The notes under the pieces: generated by a model
Database searches by the model: none
What the model was told of the DNA's origin: nothing
The model's input: the letters and a program-made list of their open reading frames with translations, nothing else
Shown: piece by piece, positions 35,228-48,007 of the stretch
Position numbering within the stretch: position 1 is the stretch's first letter
Layout of the letters: the number at the start of each line of letters is the position of its first letter
From: Chloroflexia bacterium SDU3-3
GTDB taxonomy: Bacteria; Chloroflexota; Chloroflexia; Chloroflexales; Roseiflexaceae
Reading direction: 5' to 3'
NCBI GenBank assembly: GCA_009268125.1
Contig: WBOU01000004.1
Coordinates: forward strand, 344,136 to 408,135
Length of the DNA stretch: 64,000 bases
Translations under genes and position numbers: made by a program

Positions 35228-35320
35228 CCCACACTCGCAGCAGCATCCCTTCTGGTCGCCCCGCAGCGCTTGCGCCCCAGGCGACCTCTTTTATCCCTTG
35301 CCCACGAAAGGAGCAGAGCT

Positions 35321-36529
35321 ATGCCCCGGCGTTCATCCTCCAGCAAGTCCTCGCACAGACGCACATCCAGCAGCAAAACCTCGCCGCTGGCGGTGATCGG
35401 GGTGATTCTGCTGCTCATCCTCGGCTACCTCTACGAGAGCGGCAGGCTCAGTGGGGTGCTCGGCACGCCCCCAGTGGGCAACGGGCCAGGCGTCACCGAC
35501 GAGGCCCAGCCGCCCACCACCGCCCCCGGCCAGCCCGCCGCCGACGGCGCGATCACGCCCTACTTCACCACCACCGCGCTGGTCTACCCCGACAAGCAGA
35601 GCACGCGCGGCAAGGCCCCGCTGCTTGAGGCCTTTCTGGCCGACATCAACGCCGCCAGCAAGCGCATCGACCTCGCTACCTTCGACTTTGACATCCCCGA
35701 GGTCACCGACGCGCTGATCGCAGCCAAAAAGCGCGGCGTCGAGGTGCGGCTGATCGTCGATAGCGAGAATCTGGAGACCGAGGAGGTGGCGCAGGAGACC
35801 GGAAGGCTAAAGTCGGCGGGGATTCCTGTGCATTTCGACGATCGCGAACCATTTATGCATAATAAGTTCGCCTCGATCGACGATAAGATCGCATGGATGG
35901 GATCGTGGAACGTCACCACCAATGATACATTTCGCAACAATAACAACTTTATACGCTTTGTGAATGATCAGCTGGCCGCTGACTACCGCAACGAGTTCGA
36001 GCAGATGTTTGGCGGCGCATTTGGCACCGCAAAGAAAAGTGGCACGCCCTACCCCACCGTACAGATCGGCGATGCGACGATCTCTGTTTTTTATTCGCCA
36101 GAAGATGGCGTAGCCAAACATGTGCTAGAGTCGCTCAACCAAGCCAAAAAGAGCATTCGATTTATGGCGTTCTCGTACACCGCCGACCCGATCGCCGACG
36201 CGATGATATCGAAGCACAAGGCCGGGCTTACCGTCGATGGTGTCTTCGAGGCGCAGAACGCCAAGGGAACTGGTGCCGACTTTAGCAAGCTGCAGAATGG
36301 CGGGGTGAATATCCTTACCGATGGCAACTGCTATATTATGCATCATAAAACAATCATCATCGATGACCATATTGTCATCACCGGCTCGTACAACTTCACC
36401 GCGAGCGCAGAGCGCAGCAACGATGAAAACCTCGTGATCATCGACAGCCCTACGATAGCCAGCATCTACCTCGATGAGTTCAGCCGGGTCTTCGGCCAGG
36501 CGCAAAATCCCACACGTTGCGGCTCGTAG
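35321..36529 (+). CDS. Membrane-anchored phospholipase D-family protein
   Basis: 402 residues. A Ser/Lys/Arg-rich N-terminus is followed by one helix (about 23-38) and a Pro/Gly-rich linker, so the catalytic part is probably exported but tethered. It has two HKD motifs: HNKFASIDD with GSWN, and HHKTIIIDD with GSYN. This HxK(x)4D pair with GSxN is typical of PLD nucleases and phospholipases; substrate unknown. GAAAGGAGCAG precedes the ATG. From about 35780 onward the DNA is clearly less GC-rich than its neighbours (many AT-ending codons), suggesting a different history. Confidence 0.88.
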   Translation: MPRRSSSSKSSHRRTSSSKTSPLAVIGVILLLILGYLYESGRLSGVLGTPPVGNGPGVTDEAQPPTTAPGQPAADGAITPYFTTTALVYPDKQSTRGKAPLLEAFLADINAASKRIDLATFDFDIPEVTDALIAAKKRGVEVRLIVDSENLETEEVAQETGRLKSAGIPVHFDDREPFMHNKFASIDDKIAWMGSWNVTTNDTFRNNNNFIRFVNDQLAADYRNEFEQMFGGAFGTAKKSGTPYPTVQIGDATISVFYSPEDGVAKHVLESLNQAKKSIRFMAFSYTADPIADAMISKHKAGLTVDGVFEAQNAKGTGADFSKLQNGGVNILTDGNCYIMHHKTIIIDDHIVITGSYNFTASAERSNDENLVIIDSPTIASIYLDEFSRVFGQAQNPTRCGS

Positions 36530-41421: not shown

Positions 41422-41617
41422 TAATAGGAGCCTCTTATCAAAAGGCTAGTGCATGCGACAGAACGTTTGCAGCCGATACGCCAATCAGAACCGCTCCTTT
41501 CCTGTGTGCTAAATTCCGGCCCTTGGATCACGTGTGATCCGAGGGCCGTTCGTATCCCGCGCGATAACGGTGTCGCGGCAGGGGGTACACGGGTACCTGA
41601 ACGTGAGGAGGAACGCT
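41422..41617 (+). ncRNA. Structured 5' leader of hpf
   Basis: The predicted leader contains an AGCCT/AGGCT stem near 41430-41447, a 14-bp stem with one G-U pair and a CGTG loop (41517-41530 with 41535-41548), a CCGCG/CGCGG pairing near 41557-41580 and a GGTAC/GTACC hairpin (41584-41588 with 41593-41597) just before the ribosome site. None is followed by a U-run. The density of stems suggests a cis-regulatory RNA or small RNA. The raiA motif RNA occupies the same position upstream of raiA/hpf in other phyla; homology to it is not established. Confidence 0.5.
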
Positions 41618-42193
41618 ATGGAGCTTGTTGTCAAAAGCCGCAACGGTAAGATCACGCAGCGCCAGCAGAACTACATCTCCGAAAAACTGGCCAAGCTTGA
41701 GCGGTATCTCGATCTGATCGACAAGGCGACGATCGAGGTGGCCGAGGAGCAGCGCAAGACCGAGGGTAGCGTTCACCGTGTGCAGGTGACTCTGGTGGGG
41801 AACCGTGGGGTGCTGCTGCGCGCCGAGGAGCGCGCGCCCGACCTGTACGCCGCCGTCGATGGCGTGCAGCACTCGCTCCAGCGCCAGATCGAACGATACA
41901 AGGACAAATACTGGCGGCGGGGCAAGCTGCGCCGTCAGGCGGGCGAGATCGTCGAGATCGAGCAGCCCACCCCCGCGCCTATCGAGGTCGATCCGACCGA
42001 GCCGCCACGCCTGGTGAGGACCAAAGAGGTCTACACCAAGCCAATGTTCAGCGACGAGGCCGTAGAGCAGATGGAGCTGCTGGGGCACGACTTCTTCATG
42101 TTCCGCGACGCCGACACCGACCAGATCAACGTGGTCTACCGCCGCCGCGACGGCAACTATGGCGTGCTGGTGCCGGTGGATAGCGAGCAATAG
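41618..42193 (+). CDS. hpf: Ribosome hibernation promoting factor, long form
   Basis: 191 residues. The N-terminal domain (1-100; ELVVKSRNGKITQRQQNYISEKLAKLERYL) binds the 30S subunit; the linker (about 103-130) is Pro/Glu-rich; the C-terminal domain (about 133-190; VRTKEVYTKPMFSDEAVEQMELLGHDFFMF) mediates 70S dimerisation to 100S particles. That makes it the long HPF class. GAGGAGGAA lies 5-13 bases before ATG 41618; the frame extends upstream through the structured leader but without a start that would preserve the family N-terminus. Confidence 0.95.
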   Translation: MELVVKSRNGKITQRQQNYISEKLAKLERYLDLIDKATIEVAEEQRKTEGSVHRVQVTLVGNRGVLLRAEERAPDLYAAVDGVQHSLQRQIERYKDKYWRRGKLRRQAGEIVEIEQPTPAPIEVDPTEPPRLVRTKEVYTKPMFSDEAVEQMELLGHDFFMFRDADTDQINVVYRRRDGNYGVLVPVDSEQ

Positions 42194-42213: not shown

Positions 42214-42251
42214 GCGGCGGGCGGGGCCAGTGGCCCCGCCCGCCGCTTTTT
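42214..42251 (+). terminator. Intrinsic terminator of hpf
   Basis: Perfect 15-bp GC-rich stem (42214-42228 with 42232-42246), 3-base loop, then TTTTT at 42247-42251. Confidence 0.95.
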
Positions 42252-42273: not shown

Positions 42274-43011
42274 ATGCCGAACATGCTGACCGCCGACGAG
42301 ACCACCTTCCGTAGCCGCGTGCTGCGCGCGCCGCTGCCCGCGCTGGTGTGCTTCAGCGCGCCGGGCTGCCCGGCCACACAGGCCATGCGCCCCGCGCTTG
42401 AGCGCCAGGCCGCGCGCATGGGCGGCCTGCTGGCCGTGGTGGATGCCCCCGACGCCCAGTCCATCGCCGAGCAGTACGGGGTGGCCAGCTCGCCCACGCT
42501 GCTGGCCTTCCGCCACGGGGCCGAGGTGCTGCGCTCGGTGGGCTTCCTGCCCGAGCCGCTGCTGGCGCTGCTGTGCGACGCCGCCGCCCGCGCCCATGGT
42601 GAATACTCCCGGATCTGGATGCCGCTGGAGGAGGCCTTTGAGGATGTGGCGCTGCTGCCGCTGCTGGGTGCGCTGGGGCTGGGCTACACCCGCCAGCAGC
42701 GCTGCGTGAACTGGCCCAGCGCGCGCGGCGGGCGGATCGACGTGCTGATCCACGACGAGCGCGGCGCGGTAAGCCTGGTGGAGAGCAAGCGGATCATCCG
42801 CTCGCCCGCCGAGCTGGCCAAGGCCGCCCAGCAGGCCCACAGCTACGCCCGCGCCATGGGGCTGCCCTCGTTCGTGGTGGCAGCGCCCGGCGGGCTGTGG
42901 GTCTACGCCCTGCGCGGCCAGAGCGCCGCGCTCTACCGCAGCCTCAGCTGGATCGAGCTAGAGGCCGACGCCCAGCCGCTGCGCGAGGCGCTCTTCGCAC
43001 TGCAACCCTAA
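42274..43011 (+). CDS. Thioredoxin-fold / PD-(D/E)XK nuclease-like fusion protein
   Basis: 245 residues. The N-domain (1-110) follows the thioredoxin pattern: LPALVCFSAPGCPATQAMRP places one Cys (32) where the first redox Cys lies, with Thr at the second position, and cis-Pro is in ASSPTLLAF (Pro74). The C-domain (about 120-245) fits a PD-(D/E)XK fold: Asp156 in RIDVLI, Glu170-x-Lys172 in LVESKR, then QxxxY (Gln187-Tyr191), as in RecB-like nucleases. All four key residues are present. ATG 42274 is preferred for the leaderless promoter; ATG 42283 is possible. The next gene starts 18 bases after its stop. No described family with this fusion is known to me; function is inferred only from fold motifs. 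Confidence 0.75.
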   Translation: MPNMLTADETTFRSRVLRAPLPALVCFSAPGCPATQAMRPALERQAARMGGLLAVVDAPDAQSIAEQYGVASSPTLLAFRHGAEVLRSVGFLPEPLLALLCDAAARAHGEYSRIWMPLEEAFEDVALLPLLGALGLGYTRQQRCVNWPSARGGRIDVLIHDERGAVSLVESKRIIRSPAELAKAAQQAHSYARAMGLPSFVVAAPGGLWVYALRGQSAALYRSLSWIELEADAQPLREALFALQP

Positions 43012-43028
43012 CACATGAAAGACCGACG

Positions 43029-43979
43029 ATGACTGCCAACCCGCTTCCCACCCGCAGCCTGGGCGAGGCCACCGAGGGCCAGGTCTACGACAGCCTGCCG
43101 ATCGACCTCGACAGCCCGCTGGTGCTCGACAAGGCCACCCGCGACAAGCTCGTGCTGCTCGACCCAAGCTGCGCCCCCTTCATCCGCCAGGCCATCGGCC
43201 CCCAGGCCATCCGGCGCTGGCACTACGCCCGCCCCGAGCACTGGCTGATCGCCATACCGCGCGGCTGGACAGCGGCCACCCTCGGGCGCGAGCTGACGCC
43301 CGCGCAGGCGCTGGAGGCGCTGGGCCAGCGCCATGCGGCCCTGGCCGCCCACCTTGCCCGCCACGAGCAGCCCTTGCGCGAGCGCGCTGCCAGCCCGCTC
43401 TGGTGGGAGCTGCCGCCCTACCCGGTGGATTTCTTCGCGGCCCAGTCGATCATCTGGGCCGCCGAGGCCCCGCTGCGGGCCGCGCCATCGCTGGCGGGCG
43501 TGTATCTGCTGGCGGGCATCACGCTCACCACCGCGCCCACCACCTTCCTGCTGGGCGCGCTGGGCAGCCGCCGCGTGGAGGCCGCCGCCGCCGCGCTGCC
43601 CTCGCTCGGGTCGGATGATAGCTTTAGGCTGCCCATCCCCCAGCCATCCGAGCAGGCCCAGGCCCGCATCGGCGATCTGGCCGAGCAGCTGGTCATCCAG
43701 GCCCGCGACCGCGCCGAGCTAGAGCGCGACACCCTGCGCAAGATCATGCGCGACCTGACGCCCGCCGGGGCCACGCCGGGGCCGCGCATGGCCCGCTGGT
43801 GGGATCTGAGCTTCGCCGACTTCGAGGCCGAGCTGGTGGCGCGCTTCGCCAGCCAGCTGCCCTTCCGCTACCGCGATGGCTGGGCCAAGCTGCTGAACGA
43901 GCGCCGCGTGCAGCACCAGGTGCACGACGCCACCATGGCCGGGCTAGAGGCCGAGCTAGAGGCCTGCATGGCGGGCTGA
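43029..43979 (+). CDS. Stand-alone TaqI-like target-recognition domain protein
   Basis: 316 residues. The region about 50-260 resembles the C-terminal specificity half of type IIG/Eco57I-type restriction-modification enzymes: RRWHYARPEHWLIAIPRGWT, then LAAHLARHEQPLRER, LWWELPPYP, SIIWAAE, FLLGALGSRRV and a FRLPIPQPSEQAQ end motif. No methyltransferase motifs (FxGxG, NPPY) precede it, so it is either an orphan DNA-binding module or a remnant. The start is 18 bases after the Trx/nuclease gene, on the same strand, implying one operon. Together they could form a nuclease plus DNA-recognition pair. Confidence 0.72.
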   Translation: MTANPLPTRSLGEATEGQVYDSLPIDLDSPLVLDKATRDKLVLLDPSCAPFIRQAIGPQAIRRWHYARPEHWLIAIPRGWTAATLGRELTPAQALEALGQRHAALAAHLARHEQPLRERAASPLWWELPPYPVDFFAAQSIIWAAEAPLRAAPSLAGVYLLAGITLTTAPTTFLLGALGSRRVEAAAAALPSLGSDDSFRLPIPQPSEQAQARIGDLAEQLVIQARDRAELERDTLRKIMRDLTPAGATPGPRMARWWDLSFADFEAELVARFASQLPFRYRDGWAKLLNERRVQHQVHDATMAGLEAELEACMAG

Positions 43980-43984
43980 TACGC

Positions 43985-44761
43985 CTAGATCGCCCCGAAC
44001 GTGCGGCGCAAAAAGGCCACCGCCTGCTCGGCCTCCGGCTCGTGGCCAGCGGCCACCGGGATCATCAGCGTGTAGGGCAGCGCCCGCCGCTTGCCCATGG
44101 CGTAGCTCAGGTCGATGCGCAGCAGCGATGGCTCCGTTGGGATGACATACGCCTTCTGGATCGTCATGCGCGGCTGCTGAAACACGATCCCCTGCATGCC
44201 GACCACCGCGCCACCAGCGGTGATAATCACATCCGGCGGCTCGACTACCATGCCGAAGGGGTAGCGCAGGCTGTGCCGCACACGGTAGGCCGAGCGCAGC
44301 ATCAGCCCGAACAGGCCAAGCGCCACCAAAAATGCGCCGAAAACGCCCACAAAATCCTGCTCGTACAGATTCAGCAGGCCAAGCATCACAAACATCGCCA
44401 CGCTCACGATCAGCGCATTGCGCGTCAGCGAGGGCTGCCACTGCGCCAGCTGCTCATCCAGCGCCCGCTGCACCTGGGCAAGGCCGCCAAACTGCGCCCA
44501 CTCCTCGGCGGAGAGCCGCCACGTGGCCACCGGTGCCTGCGCCAGAATCGCGGCGCGCTGCTTCAGCGCCTTGCGCGTGTTCACCACATACATCGCGATC
44601 ATGCACAGCAGCAGCACGCAGAGCGTGCCCGCCACCACAAGCGCCAGCTGCTGCACGGCGGGCGGCCCAAACGCTATCGCGATGCCCGCCAGCAGCACCA
44701 ATATAATCATAATCTGCACATCTTGCCAAATAAAGCGCCACATCTGTCGAGTGATATGCAT
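43985..44761 (-). CDS. Unknown membrane protein with four helices
   Basis: 258 residues, not recognised. Two hydrophobic segments near 15-60, two more near 115-155, then a soluble C-terminal part (about 160-258) that looks beta-rich (PPDVIITAGGAVVGMQGIVF), resembling the cytosolic part of PH-like membrane proteins but without a firm match. It is convergent with the specificity-domain gene and separated by 5 bp. Confidence 0.68.
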   Translation of the reverse strand: MHITRQMWRFIWQDVQIMIILVLLAGIAIAFGPPAVQQLALVVAGTLCVLLLCMIAMYVVNTRKALKQRAAILAQAPVATWRLSAEEWAQFGGLAQVQRALDEQLAQWQPSLTRNALIVSVAMFVMLGLLNLYEQDFVGVFGAFLVALGLFGLMLRSAYRVRHSLRYPFGMVVEPPDVIITAGGAVVGMQGIVFQQPRMTIQKAYVIPTEPSLLRIDLSYAMGKRRALPYTLMIPVAAGHEPEAEQAVAFLRRTFGAI

Positions 44762-47203: not shown

Positions 47204-48007
47204 TCAGCGCTGGCGTCCAGCGCCACCCCGGCGGCGGATGGTACGCTCGTAGTCCTCGTAGCGCAGCTTGGCGATGGTGGCGCGGTCAAGGGTGCGCAGC
47301 ACGATGCCCTCGGGCTGGCCGCCCGCGCCCTCGTCCAGCGCGCTGAGGCTGCGCGGCAGACGCTCGCGCAGCAGGGCCAGCGCCGCGTCGATGCTCTGCG
47401 GCAGCTCGCCCGGCTCGATGCTGAACAGGCGCGGCGTCACCGGCAGGCCGGCGTCCGCCGCCAGCTGCTGCAACGCCTCCTCGGGCAGGAAGGGCTGGCC
47501 GCCCTGCTCGCGCCACTGCGCGATCTGCTGCGGCTCCCAGGCCAGCAGCTCCTGGTAGCTGGCCAGCGGCAGCCGCACCACGTCGAACACGCGGTAGCCC
47601 ACGCGGCGCTCGCCGGTGTACTGCTTGCTGGCCCCGGTCACCTTGCCGCCGTACAGCTCGCCGTAGACCACGGTGATGGCGTCGGCGCTGGCGAGCTGGC
47701 CGACCAGCCGCTCGGCATCGGCCCGCAGCGCATCCACGATGCCCAGCGCGGGGTTGCCGATCAGGTCGCCGCGCGCATACAGCAGCTCCTCGCGGCTGCC
47801 CAGCAGGTAGCTCTGGTCGGGCAGGAAGATCATGCGGGCGTTGGTGCCGTCGATCTTCTCGGTGGCCAGCGCCGCCTGCGCGTAGGGCGTGGCGATCTCC
47901 AACAGGCCGCCGTTGGCCGGGTCGAGCTGGTGGTAGGTGGCGATCGAGGGGTACTTGGTGGCGGAGTTGAGCCGCCCGAGGTCGGTGTCACGCAGTGCAA
48001 AAGCCAT
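47204..48007 (-). CDS. RNA ligase family protein
   Basis: 267 residues. Nucleotidyltransferase-type ligase with motif I EKIDGTNAR (adenylated Lys near residue 51), motif III-like region VVYGELYGG, motif IV EGIVLRT and motif V AKLRYEDYERT. This order matches T4 Rnl2/DraRnl-like RNA ligases, which seal 3'-OH/5'-phosphate nicks in RNA. The N-terminus (RLNSATKYPSIATYH) is also like this group. AAGGAGCA precedes the ATG. It lies 28 bp after a methyltransferase gene on the same strand, so an RNA repair or modification operon is possible. Confidence 0.87.
   Translation of the reverse strand: MAFALRDTDLGRLNSATKYPSIATYHQLDPANGGLLEIATPYAQAALATEKIDGTNARMIFLPDQSYLLGSREELLYARGDLIGNPALGIVDALRADAERLVGQLASADAITVVYGELYGGKVTGASKQYTGERRVGYRVFDVVRLPLASYQELLAWEPQQIAQWREQGGQPFLPEEALQQLAADAGLPVTPRLFSIEPGELPQSIDAALALLRERLPRSLSALDEGAGGQPEGIVLRTLDRATIAKLRYEDYERTIRRRGGAGRQR

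Follow-up and report, generated by a model that had tools for sequence, protein, structure and literature searches.

Two adjoining genes of a Roseiflexaceae genome, here called gene A and gene B, are best explained as a defence-associated nuclease and a domesticated recognition domain (TRD) of separate origins, brought together as one transcription unit in a single lineage of that family, a reading to which we give a probability of about 0.6. Each part is a variant of a kind already known, and the items of interest are the stand-alone TRD family to which gene B belongs and the thioredoxin-fused nuclease, found elsewhere in defence islands, that is encoded by gene A.

The window, i.e. the whole stretch of 64,000 nucleotides that was analysed (G000:C4:344136-408135), comes from a source genome of 6.76 Mb, and the two open reading frames that a sequence-only reading had claimed are both there, on the same strand and separated by a short stop-to-start gap (Table 1). 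Since both have diverged relatives under purifying selection, they are not chance open reading frames. A perfect hairpin of 15 G-C pairs lies directly 3' of the upstream gene and leaves ∼27 bases before the start of gene A; its terminator-like form suggests that genes A and B are transcribed separately from that gene, or else by read-through. The co-directional run stops at gene B because the following gene is convergent. No NPP(Y/F/W) methyltransferase motif is present in any frame between 38 and 48 kb of the window, gene B included, and no clear defence island surrounds gene A here. Further out, an RNA ligase family protein (PF09414, 2.3e-15; 47204-48007, minus strand) is encoded amid an otherwise ordinary stretch, and a protein encoded at 35270-36529 (plus strand) contains two DrmC-like stretches (best 2.4e-18); it is probably no DISARM component, but an enzyme of the PLD family.

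Table 1. Features of the gene A and gene B locus, in positions of the window unless given as residues (aa).
Feature	Position	Strand	Details
Ribosome hibernation promoting factor (HPF, S30AE) gene, upstream neighbour	41534..42193	+	
Terminator-like hairpin between HPF and gene A	42214..42246	+	15 G-C pairs, then TTTTT; z -5.8
Gene A, thioredoxin (Trx)-like domain and PD-(D/E)XK nuclease	42274..43011	+	ORF, 245 aa
Gene A, Trx-like domain	aa 1-107		CPAT
Gene A, nuclease domain	aa 115-245		D156, E170, K172, Q187, Y191
A-B intergenic junction	43012..43028	+	17 bases, stop to start
Gene B, stand-alone TRD and two-helix spacer of the type IIG / CamA type, without methyltransferase	43029..43979	+	ORF, 316 aa
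Convergent gene downstream of gene B	43985-44761	-	

Residues 5-93 of gene A match the Pfam Thioredoxin family (PF00085, 2.5e-9, above the cut-off of that family), and a fold search with the AlphaFold2 model of the protein (pLDDT 84.6, pTM 0.81) gave a thioredoxin fold at Z 17. The active site reads CPAT (C32...T35), with C, C and T at Escherichia coli thioredoxin positions 26, 32 and 35, which bears out the monothiol, thioredoxin-like domain first recognized in the sequence. Its equivalents in relatives are CTAS, CPAR and SPAS, and none of the nine aligned members carries the CXXC dithiol pair, the first cysteine also being gone in some. For this reason the redox gating that had been suggested is unlikely as a property of the family, and the absence of CXXC rules out gene A as a dithiol redox enzyme or a CXXC redox gate. 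Given the loss of the dithiol site, the domain would most likely have a part in binding proteins or in stability, and not in redox chemistry.

The nuclease signature reported from the sequence, D156-x13-E170-x-K172 followed by Q187-x3-Y191, is present, and all five residues are kept in eight of the nine aligned members; E170, K172, Q187 and Y191 show no exception among the nine, and the one departure, at D156, is a locus (L094) with E instead. In the model, the thioredoxin domain is followed by a helix (118-133), three strands (137-143, 154-161 and 164-171), a second helix (178-195) and two more strands (199-204 and 207-214), and this order of secondary structure is that expected of the PD-(D/E)XK core (alpha-beta-beta-beta-alpha-beta). 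The nuclease halves of three of five relatives match HSDR_N (best 5e-4) and two of five match HSDR_N_2, all weakly (E-values of 5e-4 and 4e-3 against PF04313/PF13588). The window protein itself gives no match to these profiles, whose curated cut-off was not reached, and beyond the thioredoxin domain it matches no family; a sequence search of the PDB returned nothing useful for either gene. The Foldseek and VIA lists obtained with the complete gene A model are taken up by thioredoxins, so that a nuclease fold is suggested by the motifs, the weak profile matches and the topology. Gene A would be a DNase-type effector whose PD-(D/E)XK nuclease is distantly like the N-terminus of HsdR.

The gene A family is sporadic and almost confined to the Chloroflexales. 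A search with the nuclease half matched 10 of the 82 genomes of the order, and we count nine, having left out one weak match that runs through three stops. Among 400 genomes sampled across the phylum, clear matches came from the Chloroflexales only, and a scan of GTDB species genomes placed the family in Roseiflexaceae, Kouleothrix, Chloroploca and Oscillochloris. Outside these groups the scan gave one match in a metagenome-assembled genome (MAG) binned as Gracilibacteria and one on a Scytonema scaffold, as well as two Myxococcales proteins that have the nuclease half without a detectable thioredoxin domain. The Scytonema copy (S. tolypothrichoides VB-61278, L124) is a Trx-nuclease gene on a scaffold with masked stretches, and is possibly contamination from a Chloroflexota bacterium.

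The neighbourhoods of gene A outside the window's family support the association with defence that the sequence-only reading had raised. Its neighbours include the DISARM protein DrmD (1443 bits) with DrmMI; at another locus a BrxHII-like helicase, a type IV-like DUF262 protein and a DrmMI/IIG methyltransferase; and elsewhere HerA with a PsyrT-like helicase, or broken DrmMI/IIG methyltransferases. As a control, ten genes near gene B homologues in three genera were scanned, and the only defence match among them was a generic Ser/Thr kinase. At the four Chloroploca loci (L086, L087, L088 and L089) gene A stands in defence islands, with an intact tyrosine recombinase gene beside two of the four. 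Chloroploca mongolica has two copies of gene A, 95% identical, at separate places of its genome, and in C. asiatica and strain Khr17 a gene of the phage-integrase family adjoins the gene A copy; the duplicate copies together with the adjoining integrase genes suggest that gene A is mobile. Carriage by phages or plasmids was considered and dropped, as viral contigs hold no relative of either the gene A nuclease half or gene B (phage matches to gene A are limited to its thioredoxin half), and a plasmid search found no match to the gene A nuclease half and only remote ones to gene B (about 22-31% identity, one of them an insertion-split methylase locus). From the catalytic residues and the defence-island location outside the window's family we infer the activity and target of gene A, which is probably an anti-phage nuclease; what speaks against this is that the window copy stands in no obvious defence island and that HSDR_N matches are weak in relatives and lacking for the window's own sequence.

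Gene B, read beforehand as the recognition half of a type IIG enzyme without its methyltransferase, proved to be just that. The PADLOC type IIG models match it weakly (4e-5), its counterpart in type IIG relatives of ∼1250-1400 aa is their final ∼310 residues, and in all six of those relatives that were checked NPPY lies upstream of the homologous part. Its homologues are accordingly of two kinds, the C-termini of type IIG proteins and stand-alone proteins of ∼290-350 aa. The predicted fold of gene B (pLDDT 88.5) matches residues 324-573 of CamA at Z 16.5, followed by the TRDs of M.BseCI (Z 15.8), BrxX (14.8) and MmeI (14.3). The stand-alone proteins keep a core of P46, P77, W125, W126, L217, W257, F262 and W285, while several motifs that are invariant or almost invariant in the type IIG relatives (TG-x-N near the start, C-x-YYxxF, an R/G-rich loop and the C-terminal tail) are gone. 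Because these motifs are lost, gene B would no longer serve a methyltransferase in the usual way; keeping the TRD core and the two-helix spacer, it probably works on its own, as a binder of DNA or protein.

The fold of gene B is also like that of HsdS proteins (Z about 8-10, with 1ydx at 10.1 and PacII S at 10.2), consisting of one TRD and long spacer helices, and N6-methyltransferase-type genes occur in 15/15 genomes tested. Both observations would suit a gene B that works in the manner of a half-HsdS, giving specificity to an N6-methyltransferase, HsdM-like or other, whose gene lies elsewhere, its adjoining nuclease being incidental. We regard such a role as unlikely, as gene B is retained in two genomes (G198 and G222) with a single weak Eco57I-type match each, and none of the gene B contexts examined has an adjacent methyltransferase.

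Stand-alone copies of gene B are present in 38 of the 82 Chloroflexales genomes, and 36 of them look intact, the remaining two being one with an in-frame TAG and one partial copy. By family, counted by hand, they are found in 17 of 26 genomes of the window's family, in 21 of 41 of a second family and in none of the other two. The in-frame TAG (L013, G094:C103:15650-16492) marks either a pseudogene or a sequencing error, the relatives of that genome in the same genus being intact. A phylogeny built from 23 stand-alone proteins and 14 type IIG sequences separates the former from the type IIG C-termini at 100/100 support, with the stand-alone proteins monophyletic and grouped by genus. Values of dN/dS within genera are mostly 0.07-0.32, indicating purifying selection. 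Neighbourhoods vary by genus and are ordinary, mostly of a housekeeping character without the gene A nuclease; they include YigZ with a BTAD/MalT-type regulator, recF, hemL, glycosyltransferases, a PBP and a baeRF protein. On plasmid pP13_h of Phaeobacter piscinae (L144), an IS1380-family transposase gene lies between genes for an N-6 DNA methylase and a 'TaqI-like C-terminal specificity domain', an example of a route by which a TRD fragment can arise.

That locus, together with the confinement of homology to the C-terminal part of type IIG proteins and the in-frame TAG of the one relative, is what could be said for gene B as the 3' end left over from a type IIG gene, decaying and without function. 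The single origin of the 23 stand-alone proteins, the purifying selection seen within several genera and the lack of a methyltransferase motif nearby largely refute a broken remnant, and we hold it to be highly improbable. Gene B is thus not the recent 3' fragment of a broken methyltransferase gene, though it shares its ancestry with the type IIG C-terminus. We infer instead an old TRD-only family, kin by descent to type IIG enzymes and not working in that frame today, which would have split from such an enzyme probably before the divergence of Roseiflexaceae and Chloroflexaceae and been inherited mostly vertically since.

The arrangement of HPF, gene A and gene B is repeated in only one other of the genomes searched, the Roseiflexaceae MAG ES-bin-105 (G246, L084/L118), which belongs to another genus. 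Gene A is 59% and gene B 50% identical between the two, and the junction of A and B in ES-bin-105 is a TGATG overlap in the same place as the gap of the window. The gene upstream of HPF is not the same in the two genomes, and HPF-A-B is therefore a surviving three-gene block. The order has thus outlasted the fall of A and B to these identities and a change of the gene upstream of HPF, and this, together with the overlap of stop and start, favours a functional link within the lineage, in which A and B, co-directional and tightly spaced, are probably co-expressed. Elsewhere, three Chloroploca genomes have both genes on separate contigs and a Kouleothrix genome (G248) has gene A without gene B, so that linked cases number two among the 82 genomes (38 with the TRD protein, nine with the nuclease). 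Co-occurrence stands at the level of chance (observed 5/9, expected 4.2, p = 0.41). A general pairing of A and B is not supported by these counts, homologues lying apart in nearly all genomes.

The two genes had been proposed to form a two-subunit system, and the part of this proposal that stood is the tight arrangement, kept in a second genus with a TGATG overlap; as a general association it did not. Its fullest form would be a two-component, methylase-free restriction-like system of the Roseiflexaceae, with B attached to a DNA sequence and A docked on B through the thioredoxin domain, where it would cut foreign DNA. Such a system would agree with the order and close spacing in two genera, with the TRD fold of gene B, and with the defence islands in which members of the nuclease family are found, several of these members being near type IIG-like methyltransferases. 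We nevertheless think it unlikely, since homologues of the two genes are almost never neighbours and do not co-occur more often than chance predicts, the linked lineage is a single one, no means of protecting the host's own sites is known, and gene B has lost the TRD motifs invariant in type IIG enzymes. About as unlikely is the combined proposition that Roseiflexaceae use a domesticated stand-alone TRD to bring the Trx-PD-(D/E)XK nuclease to particular sites on DNA, with no methylase partner in the operon, and that the same nuclease family is an unrecognized anti-phage effector in other Chloroflexales.

Two protein types emerge from this analysis. One is the stand-alone TRD, which selection has maintained in phototrophic Chloroflexales and their relatives and which prompts one to ask what function a recognition domain can have without a methyltransferase. 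The other, a candidate anti-phage effector, is the Trx-fused nuclease, whose defence islands have DISARM, BREX-like and type IIG genes close by. If A and B do cooperate in the Roseiflexaceae, they would form a restriction-like device whose reading and cutting parts are separate and exchangeable. Searches of open-access literature in partial libraries gave no account of either protein type in Chloroflexota, neither the Trx-PD-(D/E)XK fusion nor a TaqI_C/TRD family that stands alone, nor a described system that joins such a fusion with a TRD-only protein; two recent surveys, of BREX and of Dnd, do not mention thioredoxin.

Compared with known systems, gene A retains the fold and the cis-proline of the thioredoxin family (thioredoxins and degenerate thioredoxin domains), but the resolving cysteine and the buried Asp26 are gone, as is the first cysteine in some members. 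With the HSDR_N and other PD-(D/E)XK nucleases it has the core residues in common, and its relatives give weak profile matches; it differs from them in having no helicase and a fused thioredoxin-fold domain, and the window protein itself is unmatched. Gene B resembles HsdS of type I systems in being a separate recognition protein with a TRD and long helices, but has one TRD where HsdS has two, shows no sequence relation to it in our comparisons and has no hsdM or hsdR neighbour. Its TRD and spacer match those of type IIG and type IIL enzymes (MmeI, BpuSI and the TaqI_C type) and of DrmMI/PglX in both sequence and predicted fold, whereas its chain is without methyltransferase or nuclease and the TG-x-N, C-x-YYxxF and C-terminal motifs of those enzymes have disappeared. 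The adenine methyltransferases CamA and M.BseCI are its best structural matches, and they are whole methyltransferases, whereas gene B is the recognition half alone.
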